A stretch of 64,000 nt of DNA. It comes from Mya arenaria. Its lineage: Eukaryota > Mollusca > Bivalvia > Myida > Myidae. Positions within the stretch are counted from its first letter, which is position 1. Every line of letters starts with the position of its first letter. The position numbers and the translations under genes are program-made. Positions 2,821-63,903 of the stretch are shown one piece after another. Location: assembly GCF_026914265.1 (NCBI RefSeq), contig NC_069138.1, positions 26,007,262-26,071,261 on the forward strand, in the 5' to 3' direction. The notes below the pieces were generated by a model. That model ran no database searches and had not been told where the DNA came from. It saw nothing but the letters and a program-made list of their open reading frames with translations.

Positions 2821-5800
2821 ATGGAAAAAAACCTTAAGACACCTATTTACATTGGTGTAGGACAGGACAATGGGGAAAATAGACGACGCCGAGAGAATAT
2901 TGTGCAAGGTGAAGTACCGGGACAAATGTCTTCAGCTAATCATATTGCTCACGCGAAAAATGATAGTAACGCTACTTTGAATGGAGAAGTATCTGGACGA
3001 ATGCCTTCAGCTAATCACAATGTTCATGGGAGCAATACTGGTGCAGCTACTACGTTAGGAGAAGTTCCGGGACTAATGTTTTCAGTTAGTCCAATTGTTC
3101 ACTGGAGAAATAATAAAAAAGCAACAATGCAAGGCGAAGTACCGGGACGAATGTCTTCAGCTAATCATACTGTTCACGGGAAAAATGATAGTAAAGCTAC
3201 TTTAAATGGAGAAGTACCGGGACGAAAGCCTTCAGCTAATGATATCGTTCAAGGGAGAAAACATATTACATCTAAAGGTGGCGTCGTTTCCGGTACAATA
3301 ACCAGCAGTGATATTGGTATATATTTACTTTTATTTTTAATTGAAGGCTTATCAAATACATTTTAACTAAATATGTTGGGTGAAGTACATGTGATATGAA
3401 TCTAAACATGTAGCCCCGACCGAGGCGTGAAAAGGTTTCGATTCTGAGATGGAACCGATTATTATCAATAACATAATCATAGCAGGTGAATAACATATCA
3501 ACATAAAGTTAACCTCTGTTCGCAAGTTAAGTGTTTAAAACTTTAAATGACCGTAGCTCCACTACGCTTCAAATGAACTTTAAAACGAATGAAATGTATC
3601 TATAGCCTTTCGGTCGGTTTCACACATCCGAGATACTACCATCATCATTTATTTATTGAAGGCTTATCAAATGTATAACGTTTTTAAATTAAACGTGTTT
3701 GGTGTAGTACATGTTATATGCATGTAGAATTGAAAACGTGAAAAAGTTTCGATTCTGAGATGAAACCAATTATTATCAGTAACATAATGATTAAAAGAAA
3801 TGCCGAATAGCTTTGACATCCGTTTCAATTCAGGTTTTTTATAAAGGCCATCGGCCAAAAACAGTCATGATGAAAAAAATATAAATCAAAGAATTTATAG
3901 ATGAATGACATAACACACCATCATAACATAATACATCAGTTGGCAAATGTAGTGTTTAAAGCTTTTGATGCTCGTTGCTTTAAATCCGCTACGCTTTAAA
4001 TGAACTTAAAAAAAACAAGTGAACTATCTCTAAAAGCCTCTATCGGTTTCAAACATCCGAGATACTACCAACAACAGAGATTTGTTATGAACCTTGACAT
4101 GAAAGTAACTATAGCAGACACGGGCTCATACCCCTGAAGACAAATCGTATATGTACAGTTCGCATTGTTTTTTCTTAAAGATCGCTCTTACTCTCAGATA
4201 AGATCTACCATAATTAATAATACTGTTTAAATATTCCATAAAATGAATAAATGTCAAAAACAATGATTCATATGAAGGAAGCCGAGTCTAATTTGAAAGA
4301 AATGAGAATAAAACATGGTATTTCTACCCTATGAGACTATAGTAGACCACAGTAAATCTTTTAGCGTTCACCACCATTTAATAGTTTTGCGCTTTCTGCT
4401 TTTAAATACACGGTTACAATCTTGTTATCAGTAATTAATTTGTTTTCCAACAATAGATTATTTAGTAATTTTCACTTGTGCTCGCAAAAACAGCGCGTGG
4501 ACAAACAATTATTTTTGACAGATGGAAATTGACTGTTAGAAGCTTTGCATGTTTGGCCTACTCTTCGATGCAAAGAGCCATTGCGAGCGTGCTTTGTTTA
4601 AACTGATTGACGAACATGTTTGGCTAATTTTATTTTCAAAAGTTATTTTGAGGTATAATGATGTCACCAGTATATATTTATGTTTTCAGAAAGAGGTCCA
4701 CCTTCAAGTGACGCAGATAAATCATCGGAGGTAAATTTAACCATATCGAATTATATTAAAGAAAAAGGCTTCCATAACCAGGCAGGGAAACTTTGAACGA
4801 AAATTCTTCTTACTCGTAATAGTATATCGGCGCAGTCAGTCCGAATGAGGACTCTTCTTTAGAACTCTTCATATATTTACAATCTTGTTAAGTGGATGAA
4901 ATTATATGTCGCAGCGCGCGTCCGGGTCAATAACGCCTTGAAGACATTTTTGCCATTTTTGTCAGTAATAACGACGTACGCTACAGTAAATAACGTTTAA
5001 AACCGTTAGCCGAACCGGATTCAAAGTTCAATCTTACCAACTTTTGTCAACAATGTTTTTTGGTAATAATATTATAAAGAGTGTACTATGTCAGTTGATT
5101 TGTTTTACATAATCTTTTCAGTGACTAGCCGTTCTTTTGATTCAGGCAAAAGTGTTTGCATTTGTATACAAAAACTGTATTATGACCTTATAAAACTTAT
5201 AAACATATAAAATTTAAATTAAACATGTATTTGGGAATCGGATATTTTTCTTGTAAAACGTACAAATTTGAATTCCCTGAGAGTGTTCCCTACAACATTA
5301 TGCATATATAATTCAAGTAAATATATGAATAAAAATATATAATTGTGTTCTTCAGGTCGTGCTCGATACATCATCCGCACGTAAGTTTAAAATGAACAGT
5401 AAGGACAACACAATATGATGGGATATAAATCATATAATGTACGTCCGCCATTTTAGCCTTTTTCCTACTGAAAGATAGAAAGTATAGATAAAAATGAAGT
5501 GATCTCGAACTTACCATAGTATCTGAATTATTTAAAGATTATGATGACATCAATACATATTTATTTTTTCAGAGATTGGTAGATCTCCAAGCAACACGTA
5601 CAAATCATCGGAGGTAAATATAAAAAAAACGCTGCTTTAACTGCACGCACGAGAAAACTAGTGAAAAAAATGGTAAAAACTTTTAATTCTCGTTAGATCC
5701 CGAAGTGAGGACACACCCAACCCGATTGACGTCGCCATTCTATTTTAAAACGCTAAATATATTGACAATAATGTTAATTGGATGTAATTATTTGTCGCAT

Positions 5801-8800
5801 TGCCTTTCCTGTTCAAAAACGTCTAAAAGACCTTTAACTATTTCTTACACTAGATATTCGGGGTCGTTGAAGCCCGTTAGAGGTACCTGATGTTTCACTA
5901 TAGGTTTGTATCACACTAAGTTGTGTCAATAATATTTTCTAATCATATCATGAGAATCTGCTTTGTCTGTCACTCCGTTGTACATAACTTAAATACGGCT
6001 CGTAATAGGATATTTATTAAATTTAATGTAAGATCGTATTTTATTACAGTGCCACATTTTATGTGACCACTCGTGAAATAAACACGATCTTACACTGAAT
6101 TCATCAATTTTTCTCTTAATTTCAGGCATTTATCGTGTTTTTTTCAATATCTTTCCCCACTGGAATAAAGTTTGTTTGACGACAGCTCTTTCTGTGCGAA
6201 TGGAACCAACTATGGCCTAACCTCTATGTCAAGTTTACCTCCTTTTCGCACGAGCAGTCCGTCCACTAAAAAAGTTCCACATAATAATTATGGAAATGGA
6301 TCTAGAATTGAAATTATTTTTAGATTAAACCCGAGTTACATCAGCGAAACTTATCATTTTAACACTTATTGAGGCACAACAATATTAAATAAAAAAGCAT
6401 TTCGGAAATTGAACAATATATATCGCGTAAAAATACACTTATATGGAACTTGAGCATGTAGCATTTTTTGTACATTAAAGAACAATTTTAACAGATTTAA
6501 GTCAACAAAAATTGACTTATAAAAGATTGTATGCGTAAAGGTTACGGAAGTCTGTGTTAAGTGTTTGTTTCGTAGTGTATATCTATCTTTTCACTGACGC
6601 TCTCAGACGCTGGATCTTACGTTATGTTTTCGGGGTGAATTCATGCTCAGTGCAGTCGAAAAATGTCTGTTGATGAGACAGCGAATCTGTTACATATCTA
6701 TATAAAGTTGAATGTCACATTTCCGTTTAATTTTGGGTTTACGAAAATCCCGTATGAATTGTCGAGGATGTGCTCGAAGATGCTTTTGAAAAGGATGGAG
6801 CGCAGACTTTTAGAGTTAGAGTGTTCTCGACAAGATGTCAGAAAACACTATGGCCTTGAAAGGCTAATTCGTTTTCATTCTGATTTAATTGTTCATGTTT
6901 TTATGGCCAATGTTCTAAACTTTTTGATAAGGCGGGACTCCTTTATCGTTCAGCTTTTTGTCAAGCCTTTTCTGCGCATTATTTTTAAAATGAAAAATGA
7001 ACTGATGAAAGAAAACAATTAAAGGAAATCTTATAAAAGATGGAAACATGGTCCCGAGTTGTCTGAACAGAGTGAAAAATCATTGATCAAATATTATCAT
7101 TTCACTCTAGCCAGAGGGAAATGATCAAGTTATCATTCACCAATATTTTTCATTCTTTTACCGATATGCATGATATGAAGCCAGCGACTAAGCGTTCTAT
7201 TGGATATAAGCAGGCTTAGATACTCAGTTCGCATTGATTAAAAAAGTGTTTTAATTACCGAACTAAACAGTTCAAAGATCACTTAGTCGATTAGGATGCT
7301 TCTATGAATTTTCATTATAAAACGTACACACATACTGTACGTCTGTGTTCTCTGATTTATTGAACATAATAAGTTGCAAGTGCATTTAATTATATTTATT
7401 GAAATTATTAATATGATTGTGTTCTTCAGGTCATGATCGAGACGTCATCTGCACGTGAGTCTTAAAATAAACATATTTATTCCTAAAACATTTAAATCGT
7501 TGCAATACTATGAGGGCGAATGTATTCTTTCTTATTTTCGCTTATGAAAAATATAGACAATATGATATGTCGGAATGTAAACTATCAATATGAAGTCGCA
7601 TTCTTTTCTTATACGTCCTCCTATTTATCGGGAAAATTTCCTATTGAAATAAAAAAATATCAATCAATAACAAATTAACTTGACCTCACTCAAATATCTT
7701 GCTCCGCAAGCATGCTGTCAAAGCTTGATAAAGGCGTGCGGTAACGTGAAGACCAGAGGAAAAGTGTTATCGACATTCATTGGAAAGTCTTGTTCCGGAC
7801 TCTGTTCGTTTAAGGTTTGGTAGATTTTTCACCTCTTTGAACTACGAACATTAATTCGTTTAAGTTAAATATAGGTTCTGACTTATAACCCGATGCAATT
7901 AAATGTAGGAATAATATCAGTTTTAATACGATATTTTTGCATAACATATATACAGCCACATACACTTGTAATTGCAAGACTGCCAATCAAATGATTTACG
8001 AAGTCTTCTTTTAAATATTTTCAGTTGTTACTGCAACTCTGTCTTCCACTTTGTTCGCTAAGCATCGCAATACCCAGTGTTGTATTGCCAAATTGGGCTT
8101 GGAGTGAAACAGACAAAGTAGCGGTTGGTTTGTTCAAATGCTGCAATTTTACTGAGGAAAACCGAACTAACTGTTCACCATTGTCTGACTGTGTTCCATC
8201 AGATTCTAGTAAGTTTATGTTGTGAAATATTAAAGTATTAATTTTGCATTTGAGGATGTGTTGCAATGTCTATATTTTGTTATTATGTGCAAGAAAATGG
8301 TCAATTATCTGCGTATAAAGATTACTGGGCCGGAGTAAGTCTTTCTCCATTATTTTTCCTTTCATTTGCACATTTTAAAGTTTAACGAGTATATGCCTCG
8401 ATTGCAGGTTAAATCATGTTAAATGAGTTTCGTTAAATGCATGTAAATGCACTTAAAAATTATCTTAAAAAATGTCATTGAAAGAAACAGCGGTTAAAAT
8501 AGTAAAATAGTAAATAAAAGCATTTTTCAGAGATATTTCAAAAAGATATGCAATAAGCTGTGTAGTCCTAAGAATTACTAAATATGATTTATTTATGTTT
8601 ATTTTAGACTTTTTTCCGCTCAGGAAGGGAGCTGCCGCCCTTCTTATCACATACATAGCTTTCCACGGTGTAACCATATTTCTAGCAACACGAAGCCAAC
8701 AAAAACACAATGATGACACTGTAAATTATCACGGTTGGGATGCAATTATTAGTTTTTGTGCTGGTAATTATTTTATGTTTTTATTCTGCCATATTTATTA

Positions 8801-10121
8801 AGGATCAAACATGATCTGAAAGCTTGTCCAACTGCTAATCACTATATATTTGAATCCCAAGCAAGAATTTACCTAACGTCAACACTATTTAAAGGGTATG
8901 ATTAAGAGTCTCATTTGAATTCTTCATAGGTTGTACATAAAGATTATATTATAATGTTATTAATGAGGTGATTTCATATTGGCCTAGTTATTTGTCCGAG
9001 GTAAGGGATAAATACGGCTTCAATGTGAACTAAAGGAAAGTTATAAGAGCTCAGGAAAATACAGCTGACCGAGGACAAATACCTGGGCCAATATAAAATC
9101 ACCTAATTAATAAGTATTTTATTAATTAACTATTGCCAGTTTGGTTAAAAACATTCTTATAACTTACCTTTAGTTCACATTGAAGCCGTATTTATCCCTC
9201 AATATTATCAATTGATGGTTTCAGTCTTTTTGTAGACTTGACTTTGCTGATTTTAACATGCATCCTTAAAGTGATATTGCACATATTTATGAATAAAGCT
9301 CTGTACATTGTAAAGAAGCATTTCGTTTCGCCTAAAATTCGTAAATTGTTTGCTTAAATGTCAAAGGTTTTCATTCGTCGTCCATTTTGTTGGTGTACAA
9401 AATCATAATAGTCCTAAAATCCACCAACGGGTTAAATACAACTGTAATATCAAACCGTACAAAGTGGTTAAATCATTCAATTGGTTCAAGTATTCCAAAT
9501 AGAGTTATACGAAGCACGAAATTTTCAAAACAGTCGGAAAACGGAAAACAAAATAAGTTCCAGCATATTTCTTATATAAGGCGAGTCTCACATCTCAAAT
9601 CCTATATGAGGCGAGTTTTGTAGCCAATCAAAACGGAGGAAACTCATATTCGGCGAGTTTTGTTGATATTGGCCGAGTTTGGTTGATATTGAGCGAGTTC
9701 TGGCATTATTGTCTTCAATTGTCTGGTATTAGTACAGCAAGTGTCTCTATATCTCGTCTAAGACGTTGAAGTTGATTAATAATTATTCATAATTCTATAG
9801 AAAAAAAAAGTGAAACATGTGCAAATATGAATGATTAGTGACTTGAAAAAATTAAGACTTCTAAAATTATCATAAAACTCGTTTTAAATTTCAGCTGCTG
9901 TTGGCTACATCGGCATCTTCATATTTTTATTAGGTTTCCGCGAAACCGCAAGTATAAACGCATTCCCACCCCGAATGTCAATGAATCTGGCGATAATATC
10001 ATGTGTTATCTACCAAACTTATGCAGCCTTCTTGTTAAAAAGTCGTAAACCCTTGACGTCCGTACCAATTGCGGTTGTTGTGAGCTATGTTGTGGTATAT
10101 ATAATGACAGTAGTGCGATGA
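2821..10121 (+). CDS. Gene A: repeat-rich, claudin-like multipass membrane protein, 9 exons, 432 aa
   Basis: Exons: 2821-3316, 4690-4730, 5356-5380, 5573-5613, 7430-7454, 7711-7814, 8025-8208, 8608-8763, 9895-10121; they sum to 433 codons with all phases matching. Residues 1-165 carry five 25-aa GEVPGR repeats. Residues 166-209 come from two copies of a 41-nt plus 25-nt exon pair (Ser/Asn-rich, ending KSSE and TSSA). Residues 210-244 are a short Cys-rich exon. TM1 is about 245-266. The loop contains GLFKCC, an NFT glycosylation sequon and, nine residues after the second Cys, the partner Cys, as in the claudin/PMP22 signature. TM2 to TM5 follow. The TGA lies before what is TM6 in C and D, so this copy looks truncated. 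The family is unknown to me; membrane topology with a cytoplasmic N-terminus is inferred from claudins. Confidence 0.75.
2908..3282 (+). repeat. Five in-frame 75-bp repeats encoding GEVPGRMxSAN units (gene A exon 1)
   Basis: Units begin at 2908, 2983, 3058, 3133 and 3208, an exact 75-bp (25-residue) period. The core reads GEVPGRM(S/P)SANHxVHG, then a variable NDSxATL tail. The third unit is the most diverged (GEVPGLMFSVS). The last unit runs into GVVSGTITSSDI at the exon end. Gene B has two such units. Genes C to E carry the unit as separate exons. Confidence 0.9.
3335..4080. repeat. Tandem duplication inside intron 1 of gene A
   Basis: Two diverged copies, about 3335-3640 and 3655-4075, share 'AAAGGTTTCGATTCTGAGAT', 'ATTATTATCA' and 'CATCCGAGATACTACCA' blocks. 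A third copy lies in intron 1 of gene B (about 19020-19325). It is intronic sequence duplicated with the gene. The open frames within it are on the minus strand and are not conserved as protein. Confidence 0.7.
6020..6105. repeat. Small inverted-repeat element
   Basis: 'GTAAGATCGTATT' near 6030 is mirrored by 'AACACGATCTTAC' near 6081, with 'CACTCGTGAAA' between. Similar copies lie in gene B introns around 19515-19585 and 21015-21095 ('CAGTGTAAGATCGC', 'TTCACGATCGTA'). This is probably a MITE-like foldback that was duplicated together with the intron segment. Confidence 0.5.
6663..7022 (+). other. 119-codon open frame inside intron 4 of gene A
   Basis: ATG at 6663 opens a 119-residue frame rich in Leu, Phe, Arg and Lys, ending MKNELMKENN. 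I see no signal peptide or known motif, no splice signal joining it to gene A, and no counterpart in the matching intron of gene B. In sequence this AT-rich one frame of this length is expected about once per window by chance, so it may be meaningless or the remains of an element. Confidence 0.15.
8965..9205. mobile_element. Foldback element with interleaved inverted repeats (gene A last intron)
   Basis: Two pairs of inverted segments alternate: 'AGGTGATTTCATATTGGCC' (about 8968) pairs with 'GGCCAATATAAAATCACCT' (ending about 9104), and 'GGGATAAATACGGCTTCAAT' (about 9005) pairs with 'ATTGAAGCCGTATTTATCCC' (ending about 9199). The order X-Y-X'-Y' suggests a foldback/MITE that was itself rearranged. 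No transposase is present. Confidence 0.7.
9225..9830. repeat. Dispersed repeat, copy 1 (gene A last intron)
   Basis: This matches 11930-12480 downstream of the gene. Shared blocks include 'TTTGCTGA(T/C)TTTAACA', 'CACTGTACATT'-like text, 'GGTTAAATACAACTGT', and several copies of 'GGCGAGTTTTG'. The internal 'GCGAGTTTTG' motif is repeated at short intervals at the 3' end. No coding potential was seen. The family identity is unknown. Confidence 0.7.
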
Positions 10122-18738: not shown

Positions 18739-21700
18739 ATGGAAAAAGACGTTGAGAAAAATATAAACACTGATGTACGACAGGACAATGAGGAAAATAG
18801 ACGATACCGAAAGACTAATGTGCAAGACGAAGTATCTGGGCGAATGTCTTCAGCTAATCGCGGGAGAGGTAATAGAACTGCAACTATGCACGGCGAAGTA
18901 CCGGGACGAATGGCTTTAGCTAATTATACTTGTCACGATAAAAATAATAGGAGAGCTAAAGGTAGCATCGTTTCCGGTACCATAACCAGCAGTGATATTG
19001 GTATGTATAAACTTTCTCTTTTTCATTAAAGGTTTTTCAAACGTTTAAACTAAATATGTTTGGTGTAGTACATGTGAAATGAATCTTAATTTGTAGCCGC
19101 AACCGAGGCGTGAAAAGGTTTCGATTCTGAGATGGAACCGATTATTATCAATCAATTAATCATAGCCGGTGAATAACACACCGCCACAAAGTTTACATCT
19201 GTTTGCAAGTTAAGTGTTTAAAACTTTAAATGACCGTAGCTTTAACTCCCCTACGCTTTAAATAAACTAATGAAATATCTATAGCCTTTCGGCCGGTTTC
19301 ACACATCCGAGGTACTTCCACCATAAGTCATGAACTTTTACGAATCACATGGATCGAACGTCTACAGACGCAGGCTAATACCGCTGAAAAAAGCCTTCAT
19401 AAATTTTCGCATTGACAAACGAATATTATTGAGATGTGGAAATTGACTGTTAGAAGCTCTGCATATTCGGTCTAGTCTTCGGTGAAAGTGTCAGTGTGAT
19501 GGTGCTTTGCTTCGCCACTCGTGAAATCTTTACTTTTGACGTTCACGAGGTTAATTTTTTCACGGGCGCACACTGAAACAAACATTTTTATCGTTTTATT
19601 TTATGTTTGAAAGGATATGAAATGACATTATATTGTAGTATTTCAGAAAAGTGGCTAAATTGTATGCGAAAAGAACGTCATTTCGTAAATGACGTCGATC
19701 AAATTGTGTCCCAGCCCTTTGCGCGCTGATGTTTGATATGGATGTAAGAATTGGCTAAAATGTAGAATCAGTGAATATATACAGGAAAGAAAATTATAAA
19801 TTGGTATATTAGCGATTAATATGAAGTCGCATTTAAACTACATCCATCCATTTCGCTGGAACCTTTCCCATTGAAAAAAGCAACAAAACATAGATAAAAT
19901 TAAAACGATCTTGACCTCACCATCATATCTTGCTCCACAAACATGCTGCCGAAGTTTTATAAATGCTCATACCCGATGATAAGCAATATACATGAACAGT
20001 TCGCATTGGTTTCACTTAACCGATCAAAAAATCGTAGCTTTTACTTGGTAAGCGTGGTGACAAACGAATATTTTGGAGATATGGAAATTGACTGTTATAA
20101 GCTCTGCATGATTGGTCTTCTCTTCGGTGCAAAGAGCCATTGCGATCGTGCTTTGTTTAAACTGACTGATGAGCATGTTTTGCAAAATGTTATATTAAGA
20201 TATTATGATGTCACCAATGCTTAAATATTTTTCAGAACGTGGTCCATCTCCAAGTGACGCGGATAAATCATCGGAGGTAAATATTACTTTTTTAATCATT
20301 TTTTTCTAACGGACAACGCTTGTATAAGTGACAGGCAGATAAAACTTGATGGGAAAATCGGCTAAAAGTTAAATGCTCGTAAGAGTATATACCGAAGTGA
20401 GGGCGCAGTCAGTCTGAATCGGGCCTTGTATTAAATGCAAAATATACTTTAAATCCTGTTTAGTGAATGTAAATATTTGTCAAGGCACGAGTCCGAGTCT
20501 ATAACACTTTTCAGTTATTTAACCATTTGTTTTCAATTATAAAGACCAATGATAGATAGCCCGATGCATTAAGGACCGTTAGCCGCACCGGATGTTTCGT
20601 TGTAGGTTTCAATCTCTCTAAGTTTACGAACCTTTGGCAACAAGATTCGCTAAAAAAATATCATGAAAAATCTATCTTTTTCAGTCAATTCGTTCAACAT
20701 TATATATATTCAGCAACTAAGCGTTCTAATAATATGAGCAGGTGAGAATTTGAACAGGTCGCAGCTCGCATGGGTTTACAAAAACGTATTTGCTTATCAT
20801 AATGAGCTGTAAGTGCATTGAATACTCTATTTATATGATTGTGTTCTTCAGGCCGTGCTCGAGCCATCCTCTTCACGTGAGTTTAAAATTAAATTCATTT
20901 ATATCTAGAACATAACCATCGTATAAATACCAAGGGGCTGATTCTTTTTTTTCAAATAGTTTTTTTTATCTTGTCTAAGGACAAACTAAGATGTAAAGGT
21001 AATTGTCTGTTTCAGTGTAAGATCGCAATATATTTCACCGAAAGTTATATTTCATGAGGTGACACTATTCACGATCGTATATTGACGCAAACACTATTTA
21101 TTTTTATTATGTGCTTGAAAGGGTATAACATGACATTATATTGTAGTTTCTAGAAAAGAGCGCCAAATTGTATACGAAGGAACGTCATTGAAAGTGTGTC
21201 CCAGCCCTGCGCTGATCTTTGATCCAGACGTAAGAATTGGCTAAAATGTGGAAACACTCAGAACATCAAGTTGATATTTTTACTGTTTGAAACAGGGAAA
21301 TGTCTTCTTAATTTCACTGATGTATCTATATCAGCTACAGGACAGCAAAAAATAAATCGGTATACTAACGATCAATATGAAGTCGCTTTTCTTATTACGT
21401 CCATTTATTTCGCTGGAACATGGATACATATAAAATGATATTGACCTAACCATATCTTGCTCAACAAGCATGCTGTCAAAGTTTTATAAATGCTCATTTC
21501 CCCGTGCAAAGCATTTAAACATGCACAGTTCGCTTAATTTCACTTAAACCGATCAAAAAAATCGTAGCTTTCACTTGTGCTCGCAAGAACGGCGTTTTGA
21601 CAAACAAATATCTTTTGGTAGATGAAATTGACTGTTTGAACCTCTGCATATTCGGTCTTCTCTTCGGTGAAAGTGTCAGTGTGACCGTGTTTCAACTGAT

Positions 21701-24700
21701 TGACGAGCATGTTTCGCAAAATTTTATATTAAGATATTTTGATGACATCAACACATATTTTGTTTTCAGAGTGTGGTCCACATTCAAGCAACGCGAATAA
21801 GTCATCGGAGGTAAATATTACCTTATCGAATTAAACTAACGAAACACGCTCGCATAAATAACAGACATGGAATACTTTGAGCCAAAACTGGGGTTAACAT
21901 TCTTAATATATGTTAAGTATGTATCGAAGTGAGGGCGCAACCAGTACGAATGAGGCCTTCTATTTTATTTTAGAACGCTAAACATATTTTAACTCATTTC
22001 AAGTCCATATAATTATTTGTCGCATCGCGGGTCTGCGTCAATGCCGTCTTAAAGACAATCAACCATTTCTATCCAATAGCGACTTACGCTAGATAGTATG
22101 GAGATTCAGGATTGTTAAACGCACCGGATGCTCATCAAGTTTACGAACTTTTGACTGTTATGTTTGCTTATAATATCATGAAAAAGTGCTATGGCAGTCA
22201 ATCCGTTCTACTAAATTTAGTCAGTGACTAAGCGTTCTATGGATTACAAGCTGAGGACAATTTGATCGACACTCAGTTCGCATTAGTTAACAAAATGTTG
22301 TTTTTATGAACTTATTTAACTGTGCAAACATAGTTTTAATTAGCCGTTTAAGATGTTTGTGTAGAATCAGTCGTACAAACATACTTTACAAGTGTGTTCT
22401 CTGAGTTACTTAACGTAATGAGTTGCACGTGTATTTCATACTTTTACATGGATATGTTCTTCAGGCCGTGCTCGAGACATCCTCTGCACGTGAGTTTAAA
22501 ATTTTCATTTATATCCAATATATTACCATCGTAAGAATACGTTAAGACGAATAAATATATTTTCACTTTTTTCTCACTTATGCCTATTAAGGACAATCTT
22601 AAAATGATTTCTGTATGTTAACGATCAATATGATTTCGCAGTTTTATTTACGTCTACCCATTTCGCTGGAGTTTTTCTATTGAAAAATAAAAAAATAAAG
22701 ATAAAAGTAAAATTATCTTGACCTTACCACCATATCTTGCTTCACAAGCATGCTGCCAAAGCTTGAAAAATGTGTGCAGAAACGTACAGTCCAAAGGTAA
22801 AATGTGTTTATCCAATGGTAGTCAATGTTGCTGTCTTTGCATAAACGGTTAAGGATATGTCGTTGCAGCATTATTTGGCGCGATTTGGACGATGGTCTGC
22901 CAATGTTCGAATGGTTTATGTACTGAATTGGCATTTATAGGACAGAGTTGTTTCAGAGTTTGTTCGTTTAAGGTTAAGTATACTTTTTGCAATCCCATTT
23001 GTAATTTGAACATTTGTTTGTTACAATTAAATGTTTTGTTTTACTTTTCTGATTCATTAACCAAGGAGTAAGAATGTTGGGATGCATAAGGTATTTGACA
23101 TACGCCATAACAACTGTTGACAAACAATATAATATAACTGCACATAATGTGAAATATAAAGTCGGCATTTAAATATTTTCAGTTGTTACTGCGTCTTTTT
23201 CTTCCACTTTGCTCGATGTGCATTGCAACATCCAGCATTGTTTTACCTAACTGGGCCAAGGGCGAAACAGACCAAGTAGCGGTTGGTTTGTTCAAATGTT
23301 GCAATTTTACCGATGAAAATCAAACTGACTGTTCACCACTGTCTGACTGTGTTCCATCAGATTCAAGTAAGTATGGGACCTTTTTGAATGTGGAAACAGG
23401 CGTATTCAAACCTAGTCAATCGTCTGCATATATTAGACTGAGATATTTCTTTTCCATTGTAATTTAATAATTATTATATTTGCATACATATTGAAAGAAG
23501 TATGCCTTTTTTCCCCTTCTCGTATATTTTGTTTAAGATAATGTTATGATTCTTACCGGATGTTCTCGGAATAAATTATATAAGAACAGTTCGAATAACG
23601 GTATAGCATGACTTAACTCATAATCGGCACTAACATATTTTATGGGTGATGATTTGATGTTTTTAAATTATAAGTATTCACTTTAGAGTAAACTACACGC
23701 ATTATATATTAAACAATACTCACATCAACATATTTTCTTAATGTTTTTCATGAATTTCAAATTTGTGGAGTTACATTTGTTTTTAATTGCAGATTTATTA
23801 ATATCAAATGAGTATCGTTAACTCCATGTTTGCTGAAAACCTTGTCTTCAATCATGATCAAACATATGTCTAAAATGCAAATTATTGTATAATCCAAAGA
23901 ACAACTATTGATAGTTTGTATTTCTTTTAGAATTCATTCCGCTAAGTAAGGCAGCTGCCGGTCTACAGATCACATACGTCCTTTTACACGTTGTAACTAT
24001 CGTACTGGCAACAATAAGCCAAAACAAAAAAGAATTGGATAAACGATTTAAATGGCAATTGGGCAATGCAGTAATTGTTTTCCTTGCAGGTAATATTTTA
24101 GTGCTCAATATTGTTATGTTCATTAAAAACAAGAGTTGCGAAAACTTGTACAATTGCTAATAACTGACAATTTTTATCACGTGGTATACACACACTGTGA
24201 AATAGTAAGGACATATTTGGTTTGTTTGACTCCTGATCTGTTGTTCCTAATTATATGTTTAAAATGTGATTTCTATCAAATATATGAATGTAGTACATTA
24301 AAATTAATGTAGGAATTTATAAAGCTAAAAGCTTGAATTATATTAATTTTCAGCAGCCATTTGCTACATCAGCATCGTCGTATATTTATCCGGTGTCATC
24401 CAAACCGACATCTTAATAGGATATCCAACCAACTTGTCAATCCATCTGACGCTGTCATCATGTGCTGTCTACCTCTCGTATGCTGCCGTCTGCTTTAAAA
24501 AACTCAAGTTTCTTATATGCGTACCCATTTTGACTGGTTATATGTATTTTGTGGTATCTTTTTTCCCGGATTTTATTGTGTATTTTACGATAATAATAGT
24601 TGTATTAGCCGCATTTGTATGTTTTACGGACAGGAAAGTTAACAACAGGAACAGGAATAGTTCAGACGACCCTACATGCTTCAAACGTAGCTTGCATGAA

Positions 24701-46322: not shown

Positions 46323-49300
46323 CACACGCACACACACAACACACGCACACGCACACACACACACACACACACACACCTGTTGTGTTTATTTAGATTTGTG
46401 GACCACATTAAAAGTACTTTAGATGTCGAATAAGTAGAATTTATTTATGATTAATGTATAAAACAACAACATCAAATGCCTGCATGTATAATAAAATATA
46501 TGTTTTGATCTGTACTTTATTTGAACCTATTTTTGTTTTCTTTATAAAACAAATACAACGGACGCCTGGTTTAAAAACATAATTAGACTTTTTTTCGTAC
46601 TATTTTGTTTTGGAGCATGTAAAACTTACTAGATTTATTCACTAATTGCCAATGGGTAACCGCAATATTTATCACAAACACCAGATAGTTAAATTTTAAC
46701 TCCCCTGTTTTCGATTGCTTTACATATTTTCAGTACTATGATGCATTTTTTATAACAGATGTCTGTCATGGGGAGGTTCCGGGGCGAATGCCTTCAGCGG
46801 AAAGAATGATTTATGGAATAAACGATGACTGTGTGGCAGGTCACATCATATCAGGTACAGTGAGTAGCAGCGATTCTTCTATTGTTTTTATCTGAAGTTA
46901 CTTAAATTTCAATCTCCACAGTAATTTCAAACCCTCTCTGAATATCTTTTTCGATTATATATAAATTACTAAATATATTAACAAATAACTGATATATGAA
47001 ACACAGAAATAATTTGTTTTAACTTATCTGTTTTCGTTTCTTTTTTATATATATAACCCATACAATTACGAATATTTTTATATTACAGATGTCTGTGATG
47101 GGGAAGTACTGGGGCAATTGCTGTCTCCAGAAAGAATGGTTCATGGCAAAAGTGATGACTGTGTGGCAGGTCGCATTCTTTCAGGTTCTATAAGAAACAG
47201 CGATTATTCTATTTTACCCTAATTTCAATCTTTATGGTTATTTCAAGCCCTCTGACCAAATTAAGGGTCTGTTGATACCGGAGGGTACAATGACACATTG
47301 GAAGACCCTATAAAACAGCGCTTTAAAGCATGCTTATGCCTAAGTTTAAAAAAATTAATCTCGACATTCCCTGGCTTTCATTTAACTCATACTATCTTTC
47401 AGCCACATGCTTATATGAATTACGTTTATCACATTTCTTGTTAACCTTACATTAGCTAACTCTTTTCAATTACCATACATTTAGTGTAACATTATACTGT
47501 TTATCGCTTAACTTATGCAGTATAAATTTCCTGCTAGATTTGCGTGGGTAACCATAGAGTTAAAAGGGTTTGGACGCAGCTGAAGAATTCATATACTAGA
47601 TACATTAAATTACCAATGTAACGTTCTAGATTTACTGGGTAACTTTGATTTGTATTTAACTTTTTATTGCAAGCTTTTATGGCTAAAGATCTAGTTTATA
47701 TCATTTTAGTTAAAAGAAGACACGCTTCGTGGTACAAACATAATCACCAAGTATTTGGTTATTATACTTAGTTGAATCGGTAGCGGTTTAACGCTTGCTG
47801 AGATGGGTGTAACTTAGAAGAGGGCGTGGGTCTATGACGCAAGTCACTGTGCACCCTTTCACCGTCGATACTAATTTATAAGATTCAATTTAATAAGGCT
47901 GTTTGAGGGTCCTCGTCTCAGAAATGTTTTACTATTATTAACCTTAAAGTATGTAATGGGGTGAAATATTTGATTATTCTTTCTACCATATTGTAAACAA
48001 AACAACACTTACTGAGCTTTTATTCATTGCATTGATCCTTGCAGGAGTAGAAATGTTTCTCCAATTGATACCAATGCTTTTAAATGCTTTTATTCTTTTC
48101 TGTCTTTATATTATGTATGACGAAGCACTATAAATAATATACAAACAGATCAAAAACACGTAGTTACGTATCAAAGAGTTGGTTAGCATTTTTTAATTGA
48201 GTAAATATAAAAGCACATTAGCATTTATAAAATTATATTTTTTATGGACCGATTAGTTGCAAGCTCCATGCCATAAACTCGTTATTTAAACGATGTTAGC
48301 GAGTACTCTAGTATTAGTATTCTATTGTATTTAACAAAATGTTCATTTATTTGTTTGTAAAAAATGTTTTCACTCACTATAAATACTAATAATTATAACA
48401 TGATTAAATGCATATCATATATTTCAATTGTCGTTCCCACAAACCCATCTGTGTCCAAATTAGTTGAACACCGAAAAAACAAACAGCAGGTATTCATGAT
48501 AGAGTTTGTTTCGTAATATGAAACCTTTAATCATTAAGCATTACAAGCGCTTTTAGGAAAATGGAGCATTTTCTGTCAATTGCTTTCTATGAGAGGGAAG
48601 TCGTTATCTATATCGTTAACGGAGGCCAAGACACTACTACGCCAAAGGCGTGTTTTTCCACAAAAATGCTGTCAACACATAGGGAGTTTGGGCAGAATCG
48701 GACAATACAGAGGACAACTTTGTATGCATATCTAGATCAAAAGGAAATATGTCGCACGATCGCAATGTGCTTATTATCTCTCTATCATATTTTATTGGCG
48801 CGTGAATAAGCTCCTTTGCAACATGTGTATAAAGCATACACTTCTTATTGATGTGATATGGCTTGGTATCAAACTTTTGTTGATGCAGATAAGGAGCTGA
48901 CCTCGAATTCTGACTACGTGAGACCATGTTGTTGTCCATGTTGTAAATGGGGGACATTCAACATTAATGTAAAAAAGATTTGTTCATCATGCTATCAGGG
49001 CTTAGGGAATACGTGCAGAAACGGATACTTAAGAGGACAAATTTGTATTGGTGACTGTCGATGCGAGGTTAATACAGGCAGAACCGAATACAGAAGTGGA
49101 AACATTTGTACGGATGACTGTGTGAAAAGTTGCGGTAGATGCCTGCGTGATTTAGGAGAAGGTGTTACAGCCTCTTGTAGTGGAAATGGAGACGCTGTGT
49201 CCCAATGTGCAAATGGAATATGTACAGGATTGTCATTTGTAGCGACTGGAACATGTTCAGCACTGTCATTTCTAGGACAGTGTTGTTATGAAATCTGTTC

Positions 49301-50820
49301 GGTGCAGGTTTGTCATATTTCATAACCTTCTATAAAATCCATTTTTTTCTTTTCAAAGTAAGTTCGTTTACATTATAATGTTACTTTTAAAAGGTTACTT
49401 TAATTAACTAGTGTAAGCGAAAAGTAGTATTGCAAAAACAATAATATATAAATATCATCAACACTATTGAAACTTAATTCAACGAGAGTCGATTTATCAA
49501 ATTGAAACAAGTCTGCTTTGCAATAATTTATAGTTGTTTATGCACCTCACATCATATACACAACCTTCTTCTTTCGATGTTTTCAATTGTTTCTGCATCT
49601 CATATAATGTACCAATCTTGCATTATATTGTTTTCAATTGTTTCTGCATCTCATATAGTGTCCCAGACTTGCATTTTATTGTTTTCAATTGTTTCTGCAT
49701 CTCATATAATGTACCAAACTTGCATTATAATGTTTTCAGTTGTTACTGCACTTATTCCTTCCACTTTGTTCGATGAGCATCTCAATATCTAGTGTTGTCT
49801 TGCCATATTGGGCATGGGGTGAAACAAACGTTATAGCGGTTGGTCTGTTTGAATACTGCAATTTTACTGAGGAGAACCGCATTTCAAACCAAAGCGAGTG
49901 TTCATCATTGTTTGTCTGTTTTCAATCAGATTTCAGTAAGTTTTTTATAACAGATATCTTGAATAAAACTCTTTAAAATGTTTTCTCTGCAGCGTTAATG
50001 CTACCATAAAGAAACTCTTAAGTCTTAATGATTGCAATGATTTCAAAAATATTTTCTTACCCTAATACTTTAATACTACATATAAATACTAATGCATTTA
50101 TTTCTCTTTGTTTCAGAAATACATTTGCTCATAAAGGCAGCTTCCGGTCTACAGATCACATATATTGTCTTACACGTTATAACTATCTTACTGGCAACAA
50201 TAAGCCAACAAAAAGAAGACGATTCGTACGATCAGCCGGATACATGTCAATACTGCAATGGGGTTGTTGTTTTGATTGCGGGTAATATAATATATCATTT
50301 TTATTATCAATCAGCTTTTTAACAAAACCGGCTGAAAACTCGTCTAATATTATCAATGCAATACTTTTTAAACCGCAAAAATGCCAGCTTTTACGCTTGC
50401 TTATGTCTAAGCCTGAGCACAATTTTCAGACGTGATCATTTCATCATTATGAACAACGAACAAAGGTACGAAAGCTAGTAAAATTATGATCAGAATACTG
50501 TTTTTCCATTTTTAGCTGCAATTTGCTACATCGGCATCATCGTATTTTTATCCGGTGTTATCCAATCACACAGTTTTAAAGGCGGTCCACCGCGCCTGTC
50601 AATCAATCTGGCGATGATATCATGTGTTTTGTACCTCACTTATGCAGCCGTTTGCTTTGGACAGCCTAAAGTGCACATATGTGTACCAACGTCGACTGCT
50701 GTGGTCTATTTACTGATATTTATGATGACAAACAAAACTGTTTTGATCGTTGTATTAGTTTTGATTGGTCTGTTTATATCAGGTACGCTTATCGTTTTGC
50801 TCAAGAAATGCAGAAAGTAA
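45719..50820 (+). CDS. Gene D: Cys-rich six-pass claudin-like protein with MAEQRYKT start, 7 exons, 433 aa
   Basis: Exons: 45719-45743, 46759-46854, 47089-47184, 48889-49307, 49740-49935, 50117-50281, 50516-50820; 434 codons, all phases match. Two tandem GEVPGR-type exons of 96 nt each (DVCHGEVPGRMPSAERM, DVCDGEVLGQLLSPERM). The Ser-rich short exons are absent, so the second 96-nt exon joins the Cys exon directly. The Cys exon is the longest in the window (139 codons), with an internal near-repeat (RGQICIGDC and SGNICTDDC). The loop reads GLFEYCNFT, so one of the paired Cys found in the other copies is Tyr. Last exon as in gene C, ending LLKKCRK. Gly2 is absent, so N-myristoylation is not possible from this start. 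Confidence 0.78.
46213..46376. repeat. (CA)n microsatellite in intron 1 of gene D
   Basis: CA repeats with ACGC and CACGTACG variants over about 160 bp. Overlapping His/Thr-rich frames are by-products. Confidence 0.95.
49579..49739 (+). repeat. 51-bp tandem array of 3' splice-site copies before the TM1 exon of gene D
   Basis: Units start at 49579, 49630, 49681 and 49732 with exact 51-bp spacing. Each begins GTTTTCA(A/G)TTGTT followed by (T/A)CTGCA, i.e. the acceptor and first codons of the TM1 exon. Only the last has TTTTCAG and is the usable site; the three upstream copies have TTTTCAA. The array was therefore created by duplicating the acceptor. Confidence 0.85.
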
Positions 50821-57200: not shown

Positions 57201-57379
57201 AATCAGTGTGATGCTGCATTCATAGATGACTACAGTGTTGTAAAATGTTGAGCTAAGGTTTAAGTCTATTTACAGCTATATGTGAATCATCTAAATTTAT
57301 CTTGAAAAGTATCACTGGATATTACATGCATGAACTATTACATTGTTGTAATGTGTTGTTCTAAGGTTTAACTGGGATA

Positions 57380-58812
57380 ATGGGCGGACAAGGAAGTAAA
57401 ACAGGTATGTAAAGATATTCGTCACCAGAACATTACAAAATTATACTTTATTAAGACGTGTGCAGTGTACATCATCTTTGTACTCGTAGATACATATATA
57501 TTATTATTATACATATATGGGCAAAATATGAACTTAAATATGGTATAAAGTCATATCAGTGTTCGTCTTTAACTAGTTTCCATTATAAAACAACAATGAA
57601 AACTACAGGGACCAGTCCAGATGCCAGGAATTTAACAGTAACCACGTTAAAAGCACAATGTCACGGCACAACAGACACTACACGAGAAGTTATCAGAGTA
57701 ATATTCTTAACCTTAAGTGTAAAAAGGCCTTTAATATGTGTATGATGATGTCAATAAAGACTACCGGACTCAGTTTATGTCACAAATGAGAATACAAATA
57801 AAATATAATGCAAGAAAGGGGCGCTTTTTTGTAGCATTCAAAGGGCATTCACCAAAAATGTGAATAATAGTTTTACTGTATCACAGTGACCTTGCTGTAT
57901 ATGACTAAAACGGAGAATTCGGTGATAATTATAACATACAGAAAACGAACGCCTCCTTTAAAGAACTTATTTTTAGTACACTTTCCTTTTTTATTATGTT
58001 TAACTTTCTAGCTTAAATTATTAATAACTGAGTGATAACGACAATTTTGAACTTCGTTTTGACCGATGCTAGCTATTAACGACCGGTGGTGGTTTATCCA
58101 CATATATACCCCGTACTATCATTCATATTTTCTTACAACAGATGTCTCAGATGGAGAAGTACAGTGACGGTTGCAGTCATGACAAATACGAGGACAGTGT
58201 GGCTGGTCGCATCGTTGCAGGTACGGTGAGAAGCAGCGACACTACTATTTTTTTCTACATTATAACGGTAATATTATCTTCCACAATGGATGATATATTA
58301 TGTTTTTCAGCATTTAATACTATGAAGGCAGACAGGTACCCATGTTTGTCTTCATGAGGACATAAGGGACCAAAATGTTTGTCATAATCTGTTGGTTAAG
58401 TAGAAATATGTGTTTTAATATCATAGTTTAAAAAGTTTTATACTGAAAAAATAACATACTTTTTTCTCTTGGATCATTCGATTTCAAGTCTTTTTGATCA
58501 TTACATCAAATACCGGTCAATTTTAAAGTGATACTGGTATTCAAAATCGATACATACACATGTATAACACACATTAATTGTAAGTAATAAACCTTTAACT
58601 ACTTACTAAATAATGCATTTATAGAAAAAAATTACAGTGATCAACTGTCGTCGCATAAGGTAGAAATACCATGTTTTCTGCATCTTCCTTGACATTTATC
58701 CTTTTCGGTCAATGTAAACATTTTTCATTGATTTTGATACTGCTTATTTGTGAGTATGGGTGCGTCCTAAACAACAAGTCGTCTGCTCAGGGTATTTAAG
58801 GGTATAAATAAG

Positions 58813-58863
<51 letters not shown>

Positions 58864-61800
58864 CTGTATTTGTTATTCATACATTAGTGTAATATATTTA
58901 TTCACAAAAGCAAGCGTGCGGTCGCGTGAAGCACTTTCAGACCTACTTGTTGACGAACCTATTTCTTATTCACATGCTCTGGCATTAATGTACCTATAAT
59001 GTATTTTCACAACATGCTAACAAGGGGCATGGTTGTGACTATTTAAATGTGTTAGCCCGATTGCTAGGATATTAGAGCTACGCCAGTGGCCTATATTAGC
59101 TGTGACCCTAACAGTTGCTAACCTTTCATTGCCAAGCATTCAAAGTATCATAACATTGTTTATCTCTTAACTCATGCAGCATACATTTCCTGCTAGAATA
59201 GCGTGGATAACCATGTATGATATCGATATTCTTTGAAAGGGTTTAATTGCTGAATAGAATTGACATATATACATTACACTTCCAGTATATTATTTAAGGT
59301 TCATTTGTTGTGAGTATGGTTGCTTTGTATTAAACCGAAATCTAACTTGTTTAACCTTTCTTAACATCTAGTTTATTTATTTTAGTAACATAAAACTTTT
59401 AAAAATTAGATTGCTTAATGATACTTACATAATAAAAGTATGTTACATGAGGCGTAACGTTGGCAGGTCGTGGGAGGAGAGGATCGCAAGTCACAGTGCG
59501 TCCTTTCCCCATCGACACTCAACTATCGGCTTTAAATGTGATGAGGGTGTTTGTAAGTCCATCCCTAAGAAATGTTTGGGTAATATTAGTATGTTGGTAT
59601 TGGATATCCTATTCTTTCTACCATATTGTTATAAAAGGTTCACGTACTGAGCATTCAATTAATTGCATTGAACCTTGGAGGAGTCATATTGTTTCTCCAG
59701 TTGGATTCCATTTTATGGAGAAGATGTTTGTGTCTTGAAGTACGGTATCCGCTAGTTTTTGATCGAGTCAATAACAATGCTGTTATTATGCCTGTTTACC
59801 CTAAACCATATTGGTGCCATTCAAAATGTCAGTGCTTGCTGATTGCTAATATTTATGGTAAATGGACGAAAAGGCACCACAACTAAAGTAAATGCATTTT
59901 CTAATTGTGATCTTTATTTTGGTAAATCGATTCTGAAATAACCTATTTTTGCAATTTTCAAGGCCAAAAAAGTTTGTTTGTAATATAGTTTTCGTTAATA
60001 TGTTTACTTATATCTCCACTCATCAAACACGTTCATGATACTATAGTGCGTGGTCCACATTCAAACAGCTCGAATGATACATCAGAGGTAAATATCAATT
60101 GATTTTATTGTATTTTGTGAATAAATTGGCAATTTGTAGAAACTGCTTTATTTGTTTTATATAAGATAAAGTAAACATATGAAGTGAGATTTTTCCTAAT
60201 TTTTCAAATATTGTTTTACTCCTTTTAAAAGAGCATTCTCTAATAGAATATATTGATTATAAACTTCAATTGGTCAATATTCCAAAGAAAACATATTTAA
60301 CAGTGAAATATGTTATTGAGAACAATTCATTGTTTTTAAGATATTTTTACTCAGGTACAGTATTGGTCGTATATTAAGTAGTCTCTTGAACATAAACAAA
60401 AGGTTTTTATCAACACGTTGTTGAAAAATACGTTTTTTTTTTAAAAAAAGGATAAAAACATACAATATTTTGAACCTTGCCAAGCTCTTATGTGACAAAA
60501 TGAGTTAAAATTTGGATTGAGGTTAAATGAAGTATTTTTGTAATATATGGGCTTGTTATTTTCTTAGATTCAATACGAACAAACACTATAAACAATATAA
60601 AACACTTTATTGCGTATCAAGTCGATAGTAACAATTTTGAAATTAAGTGAGATATAAAAAAAAACACATTTTCATTCATATGTTTATGGGCTGATTACAA
60701 ATGTTTCAACTATGAAATCATCATTTAAATATTTATATATCTTTGTAACAAGTGATTTATAGTATTCTAAAAAAAACTTATTTTGACGGGCTTTCAGTAC
60801 GTATGAACAGGCAGTCAGGATTCAATGCATGTCACACAGATCCACAGATTTCATGTCAGAGACAAATATTTGTCCAAACTAGTTCCATCACCAAAATGCA
60901 ACTTACATGTAATCTTGACCTCTTACACGAATATGGGCAAACGTATGGTTAAGAAATTAACATGATAATAGAAAAGTGTTGTGTTTAGAAAAAGACGCCC
61001 TGTTTAAATTGCTTCGAAATTGTTTTATGGAGATAAACCTCTAGAAGTTGAAAATATATTTTATTAATTACTAGGTACTACAAAGGTCGTTTTGTACCCA
61101 ATCAAAGCACTTTAGCTGGTATAGTTAAAAGGCATCAAATACTATGTCAGTGAACGTCAAACCTTTTATATTAGTGCCAGGGACAGTATGTGAACGATTC
61201 GATTCTTTTGTTGTTTCAATACAATATAATTAGTATTAGATTTGGGGACTAAGTTAGAATAAATAGAACGTATACATTTGAAATTCTGCAAAGATTTTAA
61301 CATGTTAAATCATCAAAATGTACAACAGCTGTGTAAGGTGAGCTAGGTATATATATATATGCCGCTTTAAGGGCAAAGAATATTCGAAACTACATCTAAC
61401 AAGTATACAAGTGTGAGTCCAAACAGTAGCGTAAAGTCACCAAAACACTCACAAAGACAGCTAAAACGCTATTACACGCTTATTTTTGACAACAATATGT
61501 TTTTAAAAAATAGAACCAATATTAACGCTAAACCTGTAATACAATTAAAACTGCAAAGAACAGGCCAGAAGCTACCAAAGAAATGATAATACTGTGTAAA
61601 GGCACAAGGGCATAAGGTCAAGGCACAACAGGGATATGTTTTAAAACTTACGAATAAAAGAGGACCCTCAGCATGGCTAGGATGATATATATAAAACAGG
61701 GCTCAGTCTAGGTAGGGCTGAGAATAAGAAAAACATAAAAAGGCAATAATGTTTTCGATTTATTTCTAACCAATGCTGGATAATGTGAATGTCCATGTTT

Positions 61801-63903
61801 ACCGGTATATATCCCGTTCTATGATGCATAATTTTCTTACAACAGGTGTTTGTGATGGGGAGGTACCGGGGCGATTGCCGTCAACAGATGGATTTATTTT
61901 TGGCAGAAGCGATGACTGTGTGGCAGGTCGCATCATTTCAGGTATAATGAGAAGCAACGACGCTGCTATTGAATTTAACCTTAGTTACTTAAATGTCCAC
62001 CTTGGAGGAGTAATGTTATTTTCCCAGTTAAACAAAATAAATGTAAGAAATCCATTTTTGTCCAAATTTGTTCAAGATTTACACCAAAATGCAACACAAG
62101 GTTTTTCGCAAATGGAAGCCTTTAATTATGCAATATAAGCGCATTACGAAAAAATAAAGCAGTTTTTGTCAAATGCTGATAACGAGAATAAAAGTTGTTG
62201 CTTATGTAATAAACGGAGGACAAGCCAATCCGTTGATAAGGAGCATGGTTTTCCACAACAATGTTGACAAGATATAGCATATGCAAAATTGGACACACCG
62301 GAGGACAAGCCCGTATGCGAAACTGTGTGCAGGTTTTGCATGCGCGGTTTCGGGTATGAAGAAGAAATATCTGTATTCATTTTATTTAATACATATAACA
62401 TTTATGTTTTAACTAGACCAGTATGTGGGGGCAGCATTTTGTGGTGTCTTAACGACAAGGATCTGTCGATGTACGAATGGAATACGTGCAGGATTGTTAT
62501 TGCTAGGAGACGGTTGTTACAGTCTTTGTACGATTCAGGTTTGTTGCAAACGTTTTCCATTTCAGTCTATTTGTATTTTTTTTAAACCATTTCGGCTCAG
62601 ATTGTATTACTTATAAAATATTTATTAAAGGAATGAATAAATCCGATTATGAACGGAATGCATCACTACAACAAAAAAAACAAAACAAATGTAACTACAC
62701 ATCGAACTAAATATTAATCCTCCTTTCAATGTTTTCAGTTTTTACTGCGCCTCGTATTCCCACTATGCTCGATGAGCATTGCAATATCCAGTGTTGTATT
62801 GCCATACTGGGCCTGGGGTGAAACAGACGACGTAGCAGTTGGTCTCTTTAAATGCTGCAATTTTACTGAGGAAAATAGCAATTCTAACATCAGCGAGTGT
62901 TCACCATTGTCTGATTGTTTTCCATCAGAATCTAGTAAGTTTTTGACGATAGATCTCTCGAGAAAAAGATTTTTCATGCGAATCTAGTAATTGTGCATTG
63001 TTTATTATTACAATACATAAACGAATGAATAGCCTGGAAATATCCTTTCTGTAAGAAAACAGAAGAAGGATTTTGATATAGGTTCCTGAATGTATGACAA
63101 AGGCATATGAATTTATTCCTTAATATAATGTTTCATTCAAAATTGAATTTTTATGACAGCTCTTCTCATGAATTTAAGACATGGTAACTAATACGTTACT
63201 GGGATGTTATTTATTCATGTTTAATGACATGTACATACTAAGTGGTATTTCTATCAACACATTCTATGAGTAAATGCATTTTTTAAAAATTGCAATCTTA
63301 TGCATACTTGATTAACAAATTATTTTATGTGGTAAAATGAGTTTAGATTGAGACCGAGAATTGGCTTGAGTATTTGGGCTTGGCCCTTATTTTTTCGAAA
63401 TATCTGAACTTAATGTTTCTGGTTTATGATTGTTTGTTTTGTGTTATATTTCTTTGGCGTTTACCCTGTGCCATTAAACGGGGTTTATGTTTAAAATTTC
63501 GGCTACTGAGCTTGTTTCCGTAGATTTATTTTATAAATATTAAGCGTAACAAGCAAGTATGACATGTCATTCAGCCAAGTACCTTACCTAAACAAAATAG
63601 TGCATCATGACTATAATAATTAAACTTCTAAAATGTGAATTGTACAGAACACTTACCGATGTCCGATGACAAAAAGACGAAAAAACGTTACACGACTAGA
63701 AACATACTTTTAGATGTTAACTAATTTGTGTCTACTTGTTTTAGATGTTTATTCGCTCATCAAGGCAGCTGCCGGTCTACAAATCACATACATTGTTGTC
63801 CACGGTATAACTATCTTACTTACAACAATAAGCCAGCTAATAAGAGATTCGGATGAAAGAAAAAGATGTCAATTTTACAATGGAATGGTTGTATTTTTTG
63901 CAG
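57380..63903 (+). CDS. Gene E: fifth paralog, incomplete at the window end
   Basis: Exons that join in phase: 57380-57404 (MGGQGSKT), 61846-61941 (VCDGEVPGRLPSTDG), 62417-62538 (short Cys exon, CGVLTTRICRCTNG...GDGCYSLCTIQ), 62739-62934 (TM1 and loop, GLFKCCNFTEEN), 63745-63903 (TM2). The TM3-TM6 exon must lie beyond 64000. Two more homologous exons lie between: 58142-58220 (damaged GEVPGR exon) and 60047-60087 (VRGPHSNSSNDTSE), but the partner of the latter (the TTPLLHQD exon) is missing, so it cannot be used in frame with the Cys exon. The layout repeats that of locus D, with its second start exon not found. Confidence 0.6.
58142..58220 (+). pseudogene. Damaged GEVPGR exon of gene E (or new start exon)
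   Basis: Homologous to the 96-nt exons of C and D but only 79 nt. Read in the family phase it gives DVSDGEVQ and then TGA. In another frame an ATG at the exon's first base gives MSQMEKYSDGCSHDKYEDSV then AGRIVAG, recovering the conserved end (normally DDCVAGRIISG) with phase 1 out. It is thus broken as an internal exon, but would work as an initiating exon if transcription began nearby. Confidence 0.6.
58815..58861. repeat. (TA)n microsatellite
   Basis: Uninterrupted TA run of about 46 bp inside the first intron of gene E. Confidence 0.95.
60047..60087 (+). CDS. Orphan 41-nt Ser/Asn-rich exon of locus E
   Basis: Flanked by AG and GTAAAT, phase 1 to 0, encoding VRGPHSNSSNDTSE, almost identical to the 44522 exon of locus D. 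Homology to D ends shortly after, and the expected phase 0-to-1 partner exon is lost. Including it would shift the frame at every later phase-1 exon. Splicing straight to the phase-0 TM1 exon (62739) would be in frame. Confidence 0.55.
63451..63530. repeat. Short dispersed repeat, copy 3 of 3
   Basis: 'TCTTTGGCGTTTACCCTGTG', then 'CCATTAAACGGGGTTTATG' and 'GAGCTTGTTTCCGTAG'; same family as 11695-11770 and 33427-33500. In the intron between the TM1 and TM2 exons of gene E. Confidence 0.75.

Follow-up and report, generated by a model that had tools for sequence, protein, structure and literature searches.

What kind of membrane protein is encoded by the repeated exon sets on contig C17 of the clam Mya arenaria, and do its neighbouring copies make different working proteins? 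The stretch analysed here, which we call the window, is the 64,000 nucleotides at C17:26007262-26071261 of the Mya arenaria genome (1.216 Gb in 18 contigs); a published assembly of the species is reported with 17 scaffolds, 1.22 Gb and a MAKER annotation guided by RNA sequencing (PMC10663159). A sequence-only reading of the window had described an array of five paralogs of an unrecognised, claudin-like, Cys-rich membrane protein family. The answer we propose, and regard as evenly balanced, is that the array would encode an offshoot of the claudin superfamily that is specific to this clam and crosses the membrane six times, with paralogs differing mainly in a lipid-anchored sorting tail and with a function that we infer.

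Five transmembrane (TM) modules, all on the plus strand, lie within the window as that reading had claimed, with TM1 exons at 8025, 23183, 36413, 49740 and 62739; we refer to the copies as A to E. The segments of the module follow each other as TM1, a loop carrying W..GLF..C..C, TM2, TM3, a short loop and TM4, and then TM5 and TM6. The motif was present in all eight copies examined, its classical second W being replaced by F, and W24, G35, L36, F37, C40, C54 and C60 are invariant in 9/9 aligned rows. Six hydrophobic segments were counted in seven of the eight copies and five in A, whereas the controls TARP gamma-2 and PMP22 gave four each, in agreement with the two further C-terminal segments described, although these and the long N-terminus may have been either gained here or lost elsewhere; the description of a full TM1-to-TM6 module thus fits those seven copies but not A, and the last exon of E falls outside the window, near window-relative position 65260. 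Among seven copies (A left out) the ratio of nonsynonymous to synonymous substitution rates (dN/dS) was 0.30-0.66 in 21/21 pairs, with dS of 0.24-0.69. Mean identity over the seven copies is 0.78 in TM1, 0.67 in loop 1, 0.64 in TM2, 0.67 in TM3 and 0.78 in TM4, and lower in TM5 (0.55), the TM2-TM3 loop (0.25), loop 2 (0.39) and TM6 plus tail (0.28).

The exons that precede the module, and their junction to it, are seen in gene C:

31258..31282, plus strand, exon 1, MGGQGSKT, exactly as in RefSeq P0001; also present in D and E
31739..31837, plus strand, exon 2, N1 (DVCDGEVPGRMPS...VAGRIIS), phase 1-1
34007..34047, plus strand, exon 3, link1, Ser-rich, phase 1-0
34232..34271, plus strand, exon 4, link2, TTPLLHQD, phase 0-1
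35880..36232, plus strand, exon 5, Cys-rich juxtamembrane domain
36413..36608, plus strand, exon 6, TM1 and first loop (W..GLFKCC..C..C)
36796..36957, plus strand, exon 7, TM2 and first half of TM3, phase 1-1
37197..37501, plus strand, exon 8, second half of TM3, TM4, TM5, TM6, stop

Spliced from the window DNA, these eight exons, with internal ends that are all GT-AG and phases of 1, 1, 0, 1, 0, 1 and 1 after exons 1 to 7, reproduce RefSeq LOC128224402 isoform X2 (P0001) exactly; it follows that a single annotated gene holds both sets of exons, N-terminal and TM, and that the long N-terminus proposed earlier is joined to the TM exons in it. The N-terminal tail of gene C is 186 residues long. 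Its Cys-rich exon encodes 21 Cys in 105 residues, the stretch next to TM1 being 17-20% Cys in C and D. Together with the E that precedes it, the TTPLLHQD of link2 reads ETTPLL, an acidic-dileucine-type motif, in both of these genes. Genes D and E are composed as follows:

42377..42401, plus strand, gene D exon 1, MGGQGSK
44522-44562 and 44758-44797, plus strand, gene D link1 and link2 (TTPLLHQD)
46759-46854 and 47089-47184, plus strand, gene D, two N1 exons, both phase 1-1
48889..49307, plus strand, gene D Cys-rich exon
49740-49935, 50117-50281 and 50516-50820, plus strand, gene D TM exons; GenBank MAR_033507 (P0002, partial)
57380..57404, plus strand, gene E exon 1, MGGQGSK
58129..58237, plus strand, gene E degenerate N1a, frameshifted relative to the MGG start (limits approximate)
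60047..60087, plus strand, gene E link1-like exon
61846..61941, plus strand, gene E N1b exon
62417..62538, plus strand, gene E short Cys-rich exon; P0005
62739-62934 and 63745-63903, plus strand, gene E TM exons

In our own model, gene D is readable in frame through nine exons with GT-AG ends, in the order MGG-link1-link2-N1a-N1b-Cys-TM; an alternative that skips both link exons is also in frame, and the public D model (P0002) is partial. The order in C is MGG-N1-link1-link2-Cys-TM, and in E it is MGG, frameshifted N1a, link1-like exon, N1b, short Cys exon and TM exons, with no link2 found; the RefSeq model of E (P0005) starts translation inside N1a. As N1 has phases 1-1, and link1 and link2 jointly have them too, a shift of either module leaves the frame intact, and it is in this way that the copies differ. 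The assumption of five equivalent copies with a common exon order had to be given up, the orders of C, D and E being different and A and B, listed below, being damaged and starting in N1:

2821..3318, plus strand, copy A N1 exon, carrying an ATG of its own and ~5 GEVPGR-type units (tandem-repeat analysis)
7710..7814, plus strand, copy A Cys-rich exon, shortened remnant (start approximate)
8025..8208, plus strand, copy A TM1 and first loop (GLFKCCNFT); acceptor tcag, donor gtaa
8608..8763, plus strand, copy A TM2 and first half of TM3 (limits by eye)
9895..10121, plus strand, copy A last exon, with a stop after TM5 and TM6 missing; five hydrophobic segments
18739..19002, plus strand, copy B N1 exon, carrying an ATG of its own and two GEVPGR-type units
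22748..22972, plus strand, copy B Cys-rich exon, interrupted by an in-frame stop (start approximate)
23183-23366, 23931-24089 and 24354-24706, plus strand, copy B TM exons, matching P0009 (LOC128224828)

In A and B translation starts inside the N1 exon itself, unlike C to E with their separate MGGQGSK exon, and the RefSeq model of B, P0009, begins downstream of the stop in the Cys exon. Units of the GEVPGR type are present as had been noticed, but only in A are they a genuine tandem repeat (2906-3261, period 75 bp, 4.7 copies); by eye two units can be seen in B, while D has the whole N1 exon twice and C once. Link2-like stretches lie near 5350 and 7424 in copy A. Copy B contains a tandem repeat with a unit of ~1.5 kb across 19412-22670, which carries duplicate link2-like exons near 20846 and 22459.

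The condition of these copies allows for an array in which C, perhaps together with D, still works and the rest is decaying, with exon rearrangements that would be debris and not functional diversification. Such decay would account for the loss of TM6 and the short Cys exon of A, the stop in the Cys exon of B, the frameshifted N1a and the link2 not found in E, and for upstream copies of which one has N1 and Cys exons with no TM1 found, one consists only of TM2 and TM3 and one is an orphan TM3 exon; in addition, no protein record matching copy A was returned in word-based protein searches. Yet dN/dS is below 1 in all 21 pairs, those with B and E included, the TM modules are open with six segments in seven of eight copies, D is open over its nine exons, and the RefSeq models of the family carry seven LOC names. 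We hold decay of this kind to be somewhat unlikely while treating it as a serious contender.

The array itself is real but extends beyond the five paralogs of the window. Exon searches covered 264 kb around the array and then the whole genome; because part of the flank is N and only the best candidates were scored, the exon and copy counts are lower bounds. There are at least 11 TM1 exons in the genome, at least 10 of them at C17:25.957-26.070 Mb (~113 kb), and a satellite TM1 exon is found at C17 27.141 Mb, 1.07 Mb from the main array. Among the TM-module matches listed for the whole genome (E value up to 10), 39/39 are from the array or the satellite locus on C17, and the N1 exon matches on C17, at least 10, are likewise confined to these two places. 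When the 1.2 Gb were scanned with a degenerate DNA pattern for GLFKCCNFT, it was met 7 times, always on the chromosome of the window and 4 times within it, and as a control the pattern read backwards has 0 occurrences; gene D was missed by this pattern because it reads GLFEYC.

Upstream of the window, at C17 ~25.993-26.002 Mb, two copies stand head-on in an inverted repeat of 4,550 bp with 99.2% identity and a spacer of ~0.27 kb, which arose either by palindromic duplication not long ago or as an artefact of assembly. Partial duplicates in the array are an orphan TM3-6 exon directly after an intact copy (window-relative -48523 to -48239) and a TM2 and TM3 fragment without TM1 (-29895 to -29199). 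At 911-1534 of the window there is a long imperfect trinucleotide-like repeat with poly-Leu/Thr/Ser/Val open frames on both strands, a simple repeat and not a gene. When used as a query, the GEVPGR repeat also met tandem repeats with many stops at ~30% identity (C6:36.12-36.14, C3:44.25-44.27 and 45.96-45.98, C10:32.75-34.10 Mb); these matches are probably due to chance periodicity.

Where does the module come from? The claudin-like core attributed to it is supported by the motif, the profile register and an intron in TM3. Aligned by hhalign with pieces of TARP gamma-2, PMP22, claudin-15, -18 and -19 and LIM2, TM1-4 gave a score of 29.8 (P 5.8e-4 for one comparison), and in this TARP-led set the W, GLF, C, TM2 and TM3 fell in register; the reversed alignment scored 20.8, below the real one. 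With the PMP22-led set the score was 25.6 (P 0.0024), and the codon split by the TM3 intron fell on PMP22 Gly107, in phase 1. For PMP22 itself, an intron is reported at this very codon (c.319+1; PMC5681590), exon 4 is said to carry TM2 and half of TM3 (PMC9552464), and an intron of phase 1 marks the entry to TM2 (c.178+2; PMC12652021). The clam array, as PMP22, has TM2 and half of TM3 on a single exon; the intron before TM2 is of phase 1 in all, lying by hhalign ~3 codons off PMP22 codon 60 and elsewhere again in L028. This L028 is one of four PF00822 matches in the clam's own genome (L028-L031). L028 and L029 split the same TM3 codon in the same phase, judged by eye at both splice sites, L030 matches on the acceptor side, and for L031 no such TM3-intron stretch was shown. 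The first two, at C2:69.87 and 68.33 Mb, whose TM3 intron served as a control, are TARP/CACNG-like, stand ~1.5 Mb apart and are identical in the stretches read.

Several results weigh against this kinship. The profile check of the TM module that the sequence-only reading had called for came out negative: PF00822 and PF13903 were among the rows for 0/12 members at E up to 5, HMMER filters dropping most rows above 0.1, and no Pfam family reached the cut-off, the best row being Ninjurin (E 0.015, 2/12 members). A PDB profile search gave no claudin at E up to 10. The hhalign probability was 29% for the TARP-led and 12% for the PMP22-led set, and 2/300 within-segment column shuffles did as well or better (33.3 and 32.4 against 29.8). 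GLW reads GLF in 8/8 copies, and there are six rather than four hydrophobic segments in 7/8. Structure prediction, also asked for, gave two poor AF2 models, with predicted local distance difference test (pLDDT) values of 38 and 47. That of P0008 (46.8) places strands in loop 1, and in Foldseek claudin-4 comes first without reaching significance (E 0.63; claudin rows at E 0.63-1.3), which speaks weakly in favour of the kinship.

The lack of a claudin profile match, the low hhalign probability and the two shuffles that reach the score would also be expected of an unrelated six-pass family in which W..GLF..C..C arose after TM1 by chance, as would the failure to find an intermediate sequence in the genome, where all 39 listed matches belong to C17. 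Such convergence is improbable, however, as the TM3 intron has the codon and phase seen in PMP22 and in the clam's own claudin-superfamily genes, and a phase-1 intron also stands just before TM2, although ~3 codons off that of PMP22. With the motif, register, TM3 intron and predicted strands on one side, and on the other no profile match, GLF for GLW, low hhalign probabilities and six segments, we call the array proteins a putative derived relative of the claudin superfamily, and not a claudin.

As for its place in the cell, the N-terminus would be cytosolic, judging from the lack of a signal peptide by eye, the myristoylation-type start, the basic C-tail and the first-loop sequons. Loop 1 with NFT and NQS would then face outside, the six-pass chain would end inside with its basic tail, and the NYT of the N-terminal tail would go unused. 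Genes C, D and E have the MGGQGSK start and C and D have ETTPLL; the former fits MGxxxS, the start processed by N-myristoyltransferase, and the latter fits the acidic-dileucine rule. The tail may be anchored by myristate, perhaps also by acylation of the juxtamembrane Cys, and the acidic dileucine may sort the protein to endosomes or lysosomes. The first loop, presumably stabilised by a disulphide, might form a claudin-type extracellular sheet for side-by-side or cell-to-cell contact. Among the paralogs, TM1, loop 1 and TM4 are conserved, and the tail, the loop between TM2 and TM3, loop 2 and TM6 are variable; the paralogs would therefore differ mainly in destination and intracellular partners. 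The most likely role would be in contact or in membrane organisation, after the manner of claudins, with paralogs that differ in sorting. It is conceivable, though rather doubtful, that exon shuffling re-deals a lipid-anchored N-terminal 'address tag' (myristoyl start, GEVPGR, dileucine, Cys-rich stretch) between neighbours and so sends one claudin face to different compartments.

The proposed tail has its own counterweights. Over the 264 kb covered, at least three copies have an MGG exon of their own and at least two have ETTPLL. Gene C has four sequons, of which two are in the first loop and one, NYT 51, is in the tail. Helical spacing of the Cys was not significant (p 0.065, 0.38, 0.55), thus claims of an acylated helix are weak and acylation is a guess. 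The same tail sequon, and the ~20% Cys of gene C with CxxC and CC pairs, as is common in secreted domains, would suit the opposite topology, with the Cys-rich stretch as an extracellular disulphide domain (a ligand, antimicrobial or matrix part). We find this quite improbable in view of the MGGQGSK start with no signal peptide seen by eye, the two first-loop sequons, which would become cytosolic, and the cytosolic N-terminus of claudin relatives. That annotation has fused two genes, one with the N-terminal exons (GEVPGR, link, Cys-rich) and another with the TM exons, as partial or exon-skipping GenBank MAR models (P0002, P0004, P0010) and a RefSeq model with TM exons and no Cys exon (P0006) might suggest, is very improbable, given the Cys-then-TM1 order in copies B to E and in four more upstream, the phase 0 shared by the Cys exon end and TM1 start in C and D, and the joining of all eight exons in P0001.

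The family has so far been found only in Mya arenaria, and in the searches made, no described family was recognised, as the sequence-only reading had supposed. Word-based searches of 5.8 billion proteins, able to detect only relatives that share short exact words, found none outside this species; they yielded 12 proteins from 3,426 candidates, 12 from at least 7,997 and 11 from 36, all of Mya arenaria. No literature was found for GEVPGR; on claudins and gene family expansion in bivalves a single review was met, and four papers on Mya arenaria that mention claudin are unrelated by their titles. A term search of the main text of a clam cancer expression paper (PMC11978232) met neither family gene names nor claudin. 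If the claudin-superfamily reading is true, a widespread and conserved four-pass claudin plan can be extended, in a restricted lineage, by two passes and a modular tail for sorting, in an array where exon duplication, movement and loss are still readable.

Among known systems, tetraspanins are also small multi-pass proteins with Cys in their loops. They have a large loop with CCG between TM3 and TM4; this candidate was rejected, as the TM3-TM4 loop read from alignments is ~10-11 residues without CCG in C, D and the copy G5. Claudins (PF00822), known for sealing gaps between cells, share with the clam proteins the order W-GL[W/F]-C-C, a TM2 entry like QAARALM and the top, non-significant Foldseek row; they differ in a W-to-G spacing of ~19, as compared to 11 in the clam, in lacking the third invariant loop Cys (C60) and in the number of passes. 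TARP gamma-2, with GLWRTCC..C, resembles the clam GLFKCC..C, the TARP-led hhalign set scored above the PMP22-led one, and the TM3 intron is common to the clam PF00822 genes L028-L030 (TARP-like by eye; L030 by its acceptor only), whereas in TARPs the first loop is longer and the long tail is C-terminal, and the clam proteins have a long N-terminal tail and two more TM segments. PMP22/EMP proteins differ by having no such two extra segments or 186-residue tail (gene C), by LW where the clam has GLF and no profile match, and by TM1 and first loop on two exons as compared to one in the clam. They share the succession of TM1, a first loop with W, [GD]L[WF]xxC and further Cys, TM2, TM3, a short second loop and TM4, the exon with TM2 and half of TM3, and the phase-1 intron at the Gly107 codon, and it is this TM3 intron that we suggest as a mark for claudin-superfamily members missed by profiles.

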